The position numbers and the translations under genes were made by a program. A stretch of DNA of 64,000 nucleotides from Quisquiliibacterium transsilvanicum (GTDB lineage Bacteria > Pseudomonadota > Gammaproteobacteria > Burkholderiales > Burkholderiaceae_E), in contig NZ_JACHGB010000001.1 in the NCBI RefSeq assembly GCF_014202215.1, forward strand, positions 530,847 through 594,846, read 5' to 3'. The notes under the pieces were generated by a model. That model saw only the letters and a program-made list of their open reading frames with translations, was not told the origin of the DNA and made no database searches. Positions 46,146-50,921 of this stretch are shown here, one piece after another. Every line of letters starts with the position of its first letter. Positions within the stretch are counted from its first letter, which is position 1.

Positions 46146-47675
46146 ATGAATTCCCCCTTCAGCCGCATCGGCGTCGTCGGCGCAGGCGCCATGGGGCGCG
46201 GCATCGTCCAGCTGTACGCCCAATGCGGCCATGCGGTCGTGCTGTACGACGCGCACGAGCCGGCGGTGGACGCCGCCATCGCCCACCTGCGCGACACCTT
46301 CGGCAAGCTCGCCGAAAAGGGCCGCATCACGCCCGAGCAGGCGGCGGCCGCAATGGGTCACATCGCGCCGGCCGCATCGCTACAGGACTTTGCCGGCTGC
46401 GACCTGATCATCGAGGCGATCGTCGAGCGGCTCGACGTCAAGCGCGAGATGTTCATCGCGCTCGAGGAGATCGTCGGCCCGGACTGCGTGCTGGCGAGCA
46501 ACACCTCGTCGCTGTCGATCACCGCGATCGCGGCGGCCTGCGAGCATCCGGGGCGCGTGGCCGGCTACCACTTCTTCAATCCGGTGCCGCTGATGAAGGT
46601 GGTCGAGGTGGTCCAGGGGCCGCGCACCGCCTCCGCGGTCGTCGATCGCCTGGTCGAATTGTCACGGATCGCCGGGCACACGCCGGTGGTCTGCCAGGAC
46701 ACCCCCGGCTTCATCGTCAACCACGCCGGCCGGGGCTTCGGCCCGGAGTCGCTGCGCGTGCTGCACGAGGGCGTCGCCGAGGTTCCGGTCGTCGACCGGC
46801 TGCTGCGCGAACAGGTCGACATCGGCGGCCAGGGCTTCAAGCTCGGCCCCTTCGAGCTGATGGACCTCACCGGGCTGGACATCTCCCATCCGGTGATGGA
46901 GTCGATCTACCACCAGTACTACGAGGAGCCGCGCTACAAGCCTTCGGTGATCGGCGCGCAGCGCGTCGCCGCCGGGATGTACGGCCGCAAGACCGGCGAA
47001 GGCTTCTACCGCCACGCCGGCGGTGCGCAGCAGACTCCGGCCGAGCCGCCCACCCCTGCGCTGCCCGCGGGCCTGCGGGTCTGGGTGGCGCCGGGCGGGA
47101 TGCGCGATGCGGTGCGCGAACTGGTCTCGGGCCTGGGCGCTGCGCTCGATGACGGCACCGCGCCCGCCGCCGATTCGCTGATCCTGGTCACCCCGATGGG
47201 ACTGGACGCCAGCACCGCTGCGCAGGGGCTGGATGCCACGCGCGTCGTCGCACTCGACACCCTGTTCCCGTTCGGCCTGCGCGCCTGCAAGCGGCGCGCC
47301 ATCATGACCACTCCCGCCACGCTGGCCGCGGTGCGCGAGGCGGCGCATGCGCTGTTCGCGGCCGACGGCGCGAAGGTGGGCGTGCTGCGCGACAGCGCCG
47401 GCTTCGTCGCGCAGCGGGTGGTGGCGATGATCGTCGCGATCGGCTGCGACATCGCGCAGCAGCGCGTCGCCTCCCCCGCCGACATCGACGTCGCGGTGCG
47501 CCTCGGCCTGGGCTACCCGATGGGCCCGCTGGCCATGGGCGACGCGATCGGCCCGCGCCGCATTGTCGAGATCCTCGCCGGAATGCACCGCGTCACCGGC
47601 GAGCCGCGCTACCGCCCGGGGCTCTGGCTGCAGCGCCGCGCGCAGCTCGGCCTGTCGCTGCTGCACGAGGACTGA
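46146..47675 (+). CDS. 3-hydroxyacyl-CoA dehydrogenase (PaaH type)
   Basis: Oxidises 3-hydroxyacyl-CoA to 3-ketoacyl-CoA with NAD+. The 509-residue product is the long, stand-alone type. It has the Rossmann motif IGVVGAGAMGRGIVQLYAQC at the N-terminus, LASNTSSLSITAIAAACEHP, the catalytic His region YHFFNPVPLMKVVEVVQGPR, and a first C-terminal helical domain (DTPGFIVNHAGRGFGPESLR, PVMESIYHQYYEEPRYKPSV). A second, degenerate copy follows to the end (RLGLGYPMGPLAMGDAIGPR). PaaH is the closest named relative by size. No other paa genes are present, so general beta-oxidation is as likely. It starts a four-gene catabolic run. Confidence 0.92.
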   Translation: MNSPFSRIGVVGAGAMGRGIVQLYAQCGHAVVLYDAHEPAVDAAIAHLRDTFGKLAEKGRITPEQAAAAMGHIAPAASLQDFAGCDLIIEAIVERLDVKREMFIALEEIVGPDCVLASNTSSLSITAIAAACEHPGRVAGYHFFNPVPLMKVVEVVQGPRTASAVVDRLVELSRIAGHTPVVCQDTPGFIVNHAGRGFGPESLRVLHEGVAEVPVVDRLLREQVDIGGQGFKLGPFELMDLTGLDISHPVMESIYHQYYEEPRYKPSVIGAQRVAAGMYGRKTGEGFYRHAGGAQQTPAEPPTPALPAGLRVWVAPGGMRDAVRELVSGLGAALDDGTAPAADSLILVTPMGLDASTAAQGLDATRVVALDTLFPFGLRACKRRAIMTTPATLAAVREAAHALFAADGAKVGVLRDSAGFVAQRVVAMIVAIGCDIAQQRVASPADIDVAVRLGLGYPMGPLAMGDAIGPRRIVEILAGMHRVTGEPRYRPGLWLQRRAQLGLSLLHED

Positions 47676-47679
47676 GCCG

Positions 47680-48468
47680 ATGGCCGCCCGCCTGCTCGTC
47701 GAACGCCAGGGGCCGGTGCTGGTCCTGACGATCTCCAACCCCGAGGCACGCAACGCCCTGCACCCGGATATGTACGCCACCGGCGTGCGCGCATTGCAGG
47801 AAATCGAAGGCGAACCGTCGGTGCGCGCGGTGGTGATCGTCGGCGAAGGACGCTTCTTCTGCGCGGGCGGCAACCTCAACCGCCTGCTCGAGAACCGCCG
47901 GAAGGATCCTTCGGTCCAGTTCGACTCGATCGAGAATTTCCATGGCTTCGTGCGCGCGATCCGCGCCAGCGACCGCCCGGTGATCGCGGCGGTCGAGGGC
48001 GCTGCCGCCGGCGGCGGCTTCTCGCTTGCGCTCGCCTGCGACCAGATCGTCGCCGCCGAGGATGCGCGCTTCACGATGTCCTACGTGCGCATCGGGCTCA
48101 CCCCCGACGGCGGCGGCTCCTTTTTCCTGGGCAGCCGCCTGCCCTACCCGCTGGCCTTCGAGCTGTTGTCCACCGCCGCCCCGATCGACGCCGCCCGCCT
48201 GCATTCGCTGGGCCTGGTCAACCGGGTGGTCGCGCCGGGGCAGGCGCTGGCCGCGGCGCTGGAGCATGCTCGCGCGCTGGCCACCGGCCCGGCGGGCGCG
48301 CTCGCCCGCATCAAGCGGCTGGCGGACTCCGCTCGCCTGAACCGGCTCGACACCCACCTGGAACACGAGCGCGACAACTTCGTCGAGAGCCTGTTCCATG
48401 CCGACGCTGCCGAAGGCATCACCGCATTCCTGGAGAAGCGCGCGCCCCGTTTCGGCGACACGCACTGA
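47680..48468 (+). CDS. Enoyl-CoA hydratase/isomerase family protein
   Basis: A 262-residue crotonase-fold protein, 4 bp after the dehydrogenase stop. Oxyanion-hole residues are supplied by GRFFCAGGNLNRLLE and AAVEGAAAGGGFSLALACDQ. At the two acid positions of true hydratases it has Ser (GGFSLALACD) and Asp (VRIGLTPDGGGSFFLGSRLP). This single-Asp pattern is seen in PaaG-type isomerases and oxepin-CoA hydrolase-like members, so it may isomerise or open rings rather than hydrate. The substrate is unknown. Confidence 0.9.
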   Translation: MAARLLVERQGPVLVLTISNPEARNALHPDMYATGVRALQEIEGEPSVRAVVIVGEGRFFCAGGNLNRLLENRRKDPSVQFDSIENFHGFVRAIRASDRPVIAAVEGAAAGGGFSLALACDQIVAAEDARFTMSYVRIGLTPDGGGSFFLGSRLPYPLAFELLSTAAPIDAARLHSLGLVNRVVAPGQALAAALEHARALATGPAGALARIKRLADSARLNRLDTHLEHERDNFVESLFHADAAEGITAFLEKRAPRFGDTH

Positions 48469-49582: not shown

Positions 49583-49652
49583 TCGCGGCGGTTCGGCACG
49601 GCAGTTGACACGGTTTCGATCAACGGACAACCAGAGAGCGAAGGAGACAAGG

Positions 49653-50921
49653 ATGGATTTCGAATACACCCCAAAGGTCAGGCAGATGCGCGAGCGGCTG
49701 ATCGGGTTCATGGACGAGTACATCGTCCCGAACGAAGACCGCTATCACCAGGAAATCGAGGACAACCGCGCCAAGGGCAACGCCTGGGTGCCGACCAAGG
49801 TCATCGAGGAGCTCAAGCCGAAGGCCCGCGCCGCCGGCCTGTGGAACCTGTTCCTGCCGCATTCCGCACGGGTGCCGGAAGGCCTGTCCAACCTCGAGTA
49901 CGCGCCGCTGTGCGAGATCATGGGCCGCGTGCCCTTCGCCTCCGAAGTCTTCAACTGCTCGGCGCCCGACACCGGCAACATGGAGACCCTCGAGCGCTAC
50001 GCCTCCGAGGAGATCAAGCGCAAGTGGCTCGACCCGCTGCTGGCCGGCGAGATCCGCTCCGCCTTCGCGATGACCGAGCCGCTGGTGGCCTCGTCGGACG
50101 CCACCAACATCGAGTCGAGCATCCGCCGAGAGGGTGACGAATACGTCCTCAACGGCCGCAAGTGGTGGACCTCCGGCGCGATGGACCCGCGCTGCAAGAT
50201 CCACATCTTCATGGGCAAGACCAACCCCGAGGCCGGCCGCCACGAGCAGCAGTCGATGATCGCGCTGCCCGCGGACACCCCCGGGATCACGGTCAAGCGC
50301 TCGCTGAGCGTGTTCGGCTACGACGACGCGCCCCACGGCCACGCCGAGGTGATCTACGAGAACGTGCGCGTGCCGGTCGGCAACATCCTGCTCGGCGAGG
50401 GCCGCGGCTTCGAGATCGCCCAGGGCCGCCTCGGACCGGGCCGGATCCACCACTGCATGCGCTCGATCGGGGCCGCAGAGCGCGCGCTGGAGCTGATGTG
50501 CAAGCGGCTGTCCTCGCGGGTGGCCTTCGGCAAGGCGGTGTCGACGCAGTCGGTCTGGCACGAGCGCATCGCCGAGGCGCGCTGCATGATCGACCAGACC
50601 CGCCTGATGACGCTGAAGGCCGCCTACATGATGGACACCGTCGGCAACAAGGTGGCCAAGGCCGAGATCGCGATGATCAAGGTGATCGCCCCCAACATGG
50701 CGACGCAGATCATCGACTGGGCGATCCAGGCCCACGGCGGCGGCGGCGTCTGCCAGGACTTCCCGCTGGCCAGCCTGTACTGCCACCAGCGCACGCTGCG
50801 CATCGCCGACGGTCCGGACGAGGTGCATCGCAACGCGATCGCCAAGATCGAGCTGGCCAAGCATCTGGCCATCCCGGGCGGCGTCGACAAGGTCGAGATG
50901 CCGATCACGCGCGGCTCCTGA
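49653..50921 (+). CDS. Acyl-CoA dehydrogenase, ACAD11-like
   Basis: A 422-residue FAD-dependent acyl-CoA dehydrogenase. The middle is close to the dehydrogenase half of animal ACAD11: [80 protein letters not shown] and [20 protein letters not shown]. The C-terminal segment [20 protein letters not shown] has Asp-Gly where MCAD-type enzymes have the catalytic Glu-Gly (YEGTSQ). That fits an atypical chemistry such as rearrangement of a phosphorylated acyl-CoA. It lies 70 bp after the kinase gene, with AGGAG before ATG 49653. Confidence 0.93.

Follow-up and report, generated by a model that had tools for sequence, protein, structure and literature searches.

A 64,000-nucleotide stretch of the Quisquiliibacterium transsilvanicum genome (RefSeq assembly GCF_014202215.1, contig NZ_JACHGB010000001.1, positions 530,847 to 594,846 of the forward strand; hereafter the window) carries four same-strand genes, spaced by 4, 31 and 70 bp, for a long 3-hydroxyacyl-coenzyme A (CoA) dehydrogenase, a crotonase-fold protein, an APH-type kinase and an acyl-CoA dehydrogenase (ACAD). 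Judged by class membership and conserved residues, the kinase and the ACAD very probably work as a pair that would phosphorylate 4-hydroxyacyl-CoA and then eliminate the phosphate, so feeding beta-oxidation. A preliminary description of this DNA had placed four reading frames at 46146-50921, all of which are present as placed, and had taken the kinase/ACAD pair to be kin to animal ACAD10 and ACAD11, a claim now borne out by E values, a tree grouping with support of 100/99 and kept residues; its observation is confirmed and its interpretation is partly supported. The features of the locus are as follows.

46146..47675, + strand: long 3-hydroxyacyl-CoA dehydrogenase (PRK08268 subfamily), 509 aa; 3HCDH_N and 3HCDH domains; NF006124
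47680..48468, + strand: crotonase-fold protein with a probable isomerase-type active site, ATG start, 262 aa; ECH_1 domain; NF046063 and NF005700 above cut-off
48500..49582, + strand: APH-type kinase of the ACAD10/11 kinase-domain class, TTG start after AGGAGAG, 360 aa; APH domain at 183 bits
49653..50921, + strand: ACAD of the ACAD10/11-LvaC class, 422 aa; Acyl-CoA_dh domain; human ACAD11 at E 3.3e-138
50427..50462, + strand: ACAD codons R259-R270 (12 protein letters), equivalent by residue mapping to mouse R626, R631, H634, HCMR and R637
50808..50810, + strand: ACAD codon D386, the catalytic Asp by residue mapping (mouse D753)

The acyl-CoA dehydrogenase and its active site

The solved chains closest to the window ACAD are human ACAD11 (2wbi, E 3e-138), the putative ACAD 4hr3 and mouse ACAD11 (8v3u and 8v3v), and the next-best chain beyond these four ACAD11-like ones lies at E 6e-38; the window enzyme shares 55.2% of 388 aligned residues with mouse ACAD11. 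The matches of both the ACAD and the kinase to ACAD11 are far beyond chance. Two peptide blocks of 20 and 18 protein letters that had been described as shared with ACAD11 are both present in the window enzyme, although the counterparts in human ACAD11 (2wbi) are near-identical rather than identical. In a midpoint-rooted tree of 49 rows, a set holding neither LvaC nor ACAD10, all 46 rows of ACAD10/11 type cluster together, apart from the three ordinary ACADs used as an outgroup, with support of 100/99 and with long outgroup branches. Grouping with ordinary ACADs, the outcome that the preliminary description had named as contrary to its own reading, did not occur.

Residue mapping brings mouse R626, R631, H634, C635, M636, R637 and D753 onto window R259, R264, H267, C268, M269, R270 and D386. 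The residues equivalent to R626, H634, R637 and D753 are kept in all 46 class rows of the tree, and the HCMR motif is found in 43 of them, the other three (4hr3 and two paralogs from contig C8 of this genome) having HAMR. D386 occupies the catalytic-base column, in line with the earlier remark that Asp stands in place of the catalytic Glu, which the ordinary ACAD of a relative (locus L074) does have. This enzyme, the only one of the three ordinary ACADs aligned over the active-site columns, shows G, V, R and E at the four key positions; because it shares the Arg, R637 by itself does not discriminate. Mutational work on mouse ACAD11 (PMC12440821) reports that Ala or Leu in place of R626, H634 or R637 harms the ACAD half most, the phospho-intermediate accumulating, that R637 to Lys is only partly impairing, and that Asp-to-Asn at the catalytic Asp gives an ACAD-dead form; the same paper says that conventional ACADs are without these ACAD11 residues. 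Together, tree and alignment support the placement of the window ACAD in the ACAD10/11 class, with the tested catalytic and phosphate-binding residues in place.

The kinase

The kinase finds its best solved match in 3dxp (E 9.5e-159, 65.7% identity), whose alignment begins at the same residue as the start codon given above, and it matches the kinase domain of mouse ACAD11 at E 4.4e-75 with 40.6% identity over 340 residues. It keeps the catalytic D219 and N224 (mouse D220 and N225), R176 (aligned to mouse R176, an Arg that contacts CoA) and D239, which we take to be the metal-binding Asp. The other CoA-contacting Arg of mouse ACAD11, printed as R86, aligns, by the count made here, with a Phe of the window kinase, and an Arg beside Glu85 (R84-E85 in the window) is invariant across the five kinases of this genome; the R86 numbering, as printed or as counted here, may be shifted by two. 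In the midpoint-rooted kinase tree, which has several long branches and unsettled bootstrap values and holds neither LvaA nor ACAD10, the window kinase falls in a 13-row clade (97/95) with those of B. guangdongensis, Paraburkholderia podalyriae, Cupriavidus sp. YR651 and Rubrivivax gelatinosus and with 3dxp; mouse ACAD11 lies outside the other bacterial rows except 9o56 and the kinase on contig C3 of the same genome. In print, 3dxp has been taken as representative of an ACAD-linked APH3 subclass, APH3_ACAD (PMC4702295).

Kinase and dehydrogenase occur together across Pseudomonadota

Among 120 genomes drawn evenly from Pseudomonadota, own genome included, 29 hold both an ACAD at E <= 1e-100 and a kinase at E <= 1e-35, none holds the ACAD only, one holds the kinase only and 90 hold neither (Fisher p 5e-27, uncorrected for kinship or genome size). 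These 29 genomes span 14 families, and in 18 of them no more than 2 kb separates the kinase from the ACAD, the two being on opposite strands in five of the 18. Closer to home, a kinase at E <= 1e-100 is present in 27 of 41 genomes of near relatives (again counting its own).

Gene neighbourhoods were counted in relatives' loci and in a set of named loci, the best 80 of at least 584, many of which are by their titles Comamonadaceae or Burkholderiaceae, the slot counts below leaning to those clades. Downstream counts cover loci with at least 600 bp after the kinase, and upstream slot counts those with at least 900 bp before it. On this basis a same-strand ACAD comes no more than 300 bp after the kinase in 18/25 relatives' loci and 60/78 of the best-80 named loci (78/103 together); of the 102 loci with room upstream, 56 have a dehydrogenase no more than 2.6 kb before the kinase and 47 have a crotonase no more than 1.2 kb before it. 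The position of the cluster beside prmB, dapE and mnmH is likewise kept in many relatives.

General database names leave room for another explanation of the pair, an ordinary ACAD with an Asp base beside an unrelated antibiotic- or sugar-type phosphotransferase, since Pfam and NCBIfam go no further than broad APH and ACAD names or matches below threshold. Tree position, conserved phosphate-binding residues and co-occurrence all speak against it, and the kinase falls far under the cut-offs of the three antibiotic-kinase models that it touches (38.7 versus 205 bits for APH(3')), which leaves this explanation scarcely credible. An ordinary ACAD was rejected on the tree grouping and the active-site residues.

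In loci of other families (L198, L200, L201, L206 and L209), an apparent short-chain or zinc-type alcohol dehydrogenase lies, by eye, between kinase and ACAD, and such enzymes perhaps serve 4-keto/4-hydroxy interconversion. Kinase-ACAD gaps viewed by eye in six loci of other families either contained dehydrogenases or were empty of genes, and none of the six was an lva operon. Two plasmid searches for reference operons returned 277 records with a kinase match and 1508 with an ACAD match.

Relation to ACAD10/11 and to the lva operon

By sequence class the window pair has the same two activities as mammalian ACAD11 and ACAD10, an APH-type kinase and an Asp-based HCMR ACAD, the comparison having been made through mouse and human ACAD11. 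The mammalian enzymes are single chains whereas the window has two genes, the HAD domain of ACAD10 has no counterpart here, and the window cluster adds a 3-hydroxyacyl-CoA dehydrogenase and an apparently isomerase-type crotonase. Separate kinase and ACAD genes are common in bacteria, so that the earlier phrase 'split ACAD11' may invert the history. The separate Burkholderia pseudomallei proteins Q63VL0 (kinase) and Q63VL1 (ACAD) are reported to replace either half of ACAD10 in vitro (PMC11342911); they resemble the window pair in being two genes, and the two pairs could be direct orthologs. At the B. guangdongensis ortholog locus (L094), kinase and ACAD adjoin, with a crotonase and a histidine phosphatase upstream and a glutathione S-transferase (GST) downstream; the ortholog pair is 68%/72% identical to the window kinase and ACAD, a second adjoining pair 55%/68% and a third, whose members are 1.7 kb apart, 51%/56%. 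The same source has ACAD10 phosphorylating 4-hydroxyacyl-CoA and yielding mainly 2-trans-enoyl-CoA with some 3-hydroxyacyl-CoA (PMC11342911), and the preliminary description, which had the substrate rearranged to 3-hydroxyacyl-CoA, has to be corrected on this point: the published main product is the 2-enoyl-CoA and the 3-hydroxyacyl-CoA the lesser one.

The analogy drawn earlier with LvaA and LvaC holds for the chemistry, in that the lva operon of Pseudomonas putida and the corresponding cluster of P. citronellolis are described as applying kinase and ACAD to 4-hydroxyacyl-CoA (PMC6692424, PMC11342911), but it does not extend to the operon. The 70 bp between the window kinase and ACAD leave no LvaB between them, and LvaD, LvaE and LvaR are not beside the pair. 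Membership of the lva operon was rejected for want of LvaB, LvaD, LvaE and LvaR at the site, which therefore does not point to levulinate as a substrate. The window kinase is 41% identical to mouse ACAD11, compared with 29% for LvaA against the ACAD10/11 kinases (PMC11342911). As PMC6692424 relates with reference to Rand et al. 2017, homologues of lvaABCD had been noted before in the Alpha-, Beta- and Gammaproteobacteria.

A probable isomerase-type crotonase and a long 3-hydroxyacyl-CoA dehydrogenase

Aligned to the hydratase 2pbp, the crotonase-fold protein has S115, Y135 and D143 where 2pbp has Glu, Glu and Gly, the two Glu being, we assume, the catalytic glutamates of the hydratase. This S/Y/D combination recurs in 46 of the 47 cluster-linked crotonase copies examined, and the remaining copy has S/H/D. 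PaaG (4fzw_C), the 1,2-epoxyphenylacetyl-CoA isomerase, shares with the window protein its fold, the same Asp (within a PD(G/C)GG stretch) and the lack of a Glu at either hydratase position. PaaG has been likened to delta3-delta2-enoyl-CoA isomerases, hydratases being credited with two catalytic glutamates; one catalytic glutamate is ascribed to PaaG in the same paper (PMC4498308), and our alignment offers no place for such a Glu. With both hydratase glutamates absent and a PaaG-like Asp present, the crotonase therefore looks like an isomerase, and an isomerase-type enzyme rather than a standard hydratase is the most likely assignment on these residues; for the same absence it is probably no source of the hydration step.

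The dehydrogenase scores 673 bits against NF006124 (cut-off 508) and 415 bits against the PaaH model TIGR02279, below its cut-off of 669, and it has the motifs NTSSLS, GYHFFNP, VVEVV and GFIVN, which presumably hold the catalytic residues. The two genes preceding the kinase had been expected to complete beta-oxidation of the product: the dehydrogenase would take its part in this, while the crotonase, lacking both hydratase glutamates, makes hydration unlikely at its hands.

These two genes could instead belong to a phenylacetate-type degradation and stand beside the kinase and ACAD by chance. The crotonase is above the cut-off of NF046063 (oxepin-CoA hydrolase, alternative type; 359 versus 300 bits), the dehydrogenase does score against PaaH, and the Asp is PaaG-like. 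Yet the crotonase does not pass TIGR02280 (PaaG), the dehydrogenase stays below the PaaH cut-off, and the dehydrogenase and crotonase precede the kinase in many relatives, as counted above. Furthermore, the PaaA/PaaC ring epoxidase family, PF05138, was not found in this 99% complete genome by a search that was positive in four of 14 controls and negative in the E. coli control, so that its sensitivity is not fully shown. We regard a chance neighbourhood of this kind as improbable, and a phenylacetate cluster was rejected on the missing PaaA/PaaC family, with the caveat of the E. coli control.

A variable slot before the kinase

Upstream of the kinase, relatives carry one of two alternatives or neither of them. 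Within 700 bp there is a histidine phosphatase (PF00300) in 6/25 relatives' loci and 13/77 of the best-80 named loci, and within 400 bp a Crp-type regulator (PF00027 and PF13545) in 0/25 and 47/77; 19/25 and 17/77 have neither, and the two never occur together in the 102 loci. The families were confirmed on two phosphatases and one regulator. The slot of the window itself contains neither, and a search of its own genome for the cluster phosphatase gave three weak general histidine-phosphatase matches (best E 4e-5); since these weak matches stand alone, we take the cluster phosphatase to be absent rather than moved. The arrangement in some relatives, with the phosphatase upstream of the kinase, recalls the P. 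citronellolis cluster, where a histidine phosphatase beside the LvaA homologue, in the position of P. putida LvaB, is proposed to act on 4-phosphovaleryl-CoA (PMC6692424). In ACAD10, the HAD domain is reported to restrain the kinase (PMC11342911). Our searches of open-licence papers, which were not aimed at these two features, turned up no account of a Crp-type regulator in this slot or of such a crotonase, and this silence is a weak sign of novelty.

Paralogs in the same genome

The 4.3 Mb genome encodes seven HCMR-type ACADs (L001-L007, on contigs C1, C2, C3, C4 and C6) with identities of 100% (the window copy), 78, 67, 61, 58, 59 and 51%, and two more with HAMR on C8. It also encodes five kinases at E <= 1.1e-48, of which the C3 one branches with 9o56, apart from all others in the kinase tree. 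Kinase and ACAD adjoin only in the window and on C2. The C2 pair (L022:7606-9878) has the reverse gene order, and its divergent neighbour resembles, by eye, an AMP-ligase. The nearest ACAD paralog (78%; C4, L016:7609-9614) lies by eye between LysR-like and Crp-like genes and has no adjoining kinase. From this paralog set, with its one further adjoining pair, the organism probably handles several gamma-hydroxylated acyl-CoAs.

The number of copies bears on the substrate. It is possible, though we think it somewhat unlikely, that the window pair performs the same chemistry on another gamma-hydroxylated CoA ester, from steroid, terpene, lactone or aromatic breakdown, a view that overlaps with a general action on 4-hydroxyacyl-CoA and differs in the substrate. 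Seven HCMR-type ACADs exceed the need of one substrate, and other copies lie, by eye, beside apparent acyl-CoA synthetases, CoA transferases and short-chain dehydrogenases. The window cluster, in contrast, has generic beta-oxidation partners and the housekeeping neighbours prmB, dapE and mnmH, in a place kept in many relatives; a general clearing role therefore fits it better than a special substrate.

Surroundings of the cluster

The cluster is flanked upstream by prmB and dapE and downstream by a GST-like gene, an EamA transporter and mnmH.

51064..51759, + strand: glutathione S-transferase-like gene, GST_N/GST_C domains, starting 142 bp past the ACAD

This GST-like gene is a possible cluster member; among the 66 loci in which an ACAD adjoins the kinase and the sequence runs on for 3 kb or more beyond the kinase, 29 have a GST within 2.6 kb of the kinase end. 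Several relatives (L063-L081) carry GST genes on one or both cluster flanks, and these might be connected with products of lipid peroxidation, 4-hydroxynonenal for example. A scan of 44000-54000 gave no promoter-like sites and one terminator-like site, fewer than in shuffled sequence and so of no use as a signal, with none between the four genes. Farther downstream, at about 54520-54715 between mnmH and a ppiD-like gene, translations show short repeated units (11 protein letters), which suggests a tandem repeat.

Discussion

Our analysis outlines how two neighbouring gene products could pass a hydroxylated acyl chain into beta-oxidation. We suggest that an acid activated by an acyl-CoA synthetase encoded elsewhere would reach the kinase as 4-hydroxyacyl-CoA, and that the kinase would transfer a phosphate of adenosine triphosphate (ATP) to its 4-hydroxyl. 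D386 of the ACAD would then remove the C2 proton, with flavin adenine dinucleotide (FAD) in a temporary redox role, while R259, H267 and R270 would hold the phosphate and aid its expulsion, giving 2-enoyl-CoA with no net oxidation; class membership and the mapped residues point to both steps. More speculatively, the crotonase might act as an enoyl-CoA isomerase that shifts a misplaced double bond, for example that of a 3-enoyl-CoA, to the 2-position. Hydration could come from another cellular hydratase or partly from the ACAD, and the 3-hydroxyacyl-CoA dehydrogenase would oxidise the hydrated product.

Several observations weigh against this reading. Thiolase, hydratase and acyl-CoA synthetase genes are all missing from within the cluster, and the NCBIfam name of the crotonase is oxepin-CoA hydrolase. 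With seven HCMR-type ACADs and five kinases in the genome, the partner and the substrate of each are uncertain. The co-occurrence counts assume one shared sample of 120 genomes for the ACAD and kinase searches, as the agreement of their listed handles suggests, and no more than 14 candidates were scored in any one genome by the ACAD search, which may leave non-matching genomes under-counted; at a kinase cut-off of 1e-60 the kinase is retained in 22 of the 29 ACAD genomes. Finally, 14 of the 41 close-relative genomes are without a kinase at E <= 1e-100, and in 25 of the 103 Burkholderiales-type loci with room the ACAD does not adjoin the kinase.

The chemistry and its two-gene bacterial form were already in print by 2024-2025, and the remaining interest lies in the extended module and its odd crotonase. 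We tentatively picture a Burkholderiales-type module, a proposal more doubtful than firm, in which kinase and ACAD would be joined by an isomerase-type crotonase catching the 3-enoyl-CoA side product, by the long dehydrogenase and by a control slot, filled either with a histidine phosphatase that might clear stalled 4-phosphoacyl-CoA, much like the regulatory HAD of ACAD10, or with a Crp-type regulator; the window would represent this module with the slot empty. The isomerase-type crotonase, the histidine phosphatase and the Crp-type regulator could explain how the phosphorylated intermediate and the side products are handled. The residues named here mark true members among genes annotated generically as 'acyl-CoA dehydrogenase' and 'phosphotransferase', and the locus shows where bacteria keep the counterparts of both halves of a mammalian lipid enzyme that has only lately been explained.

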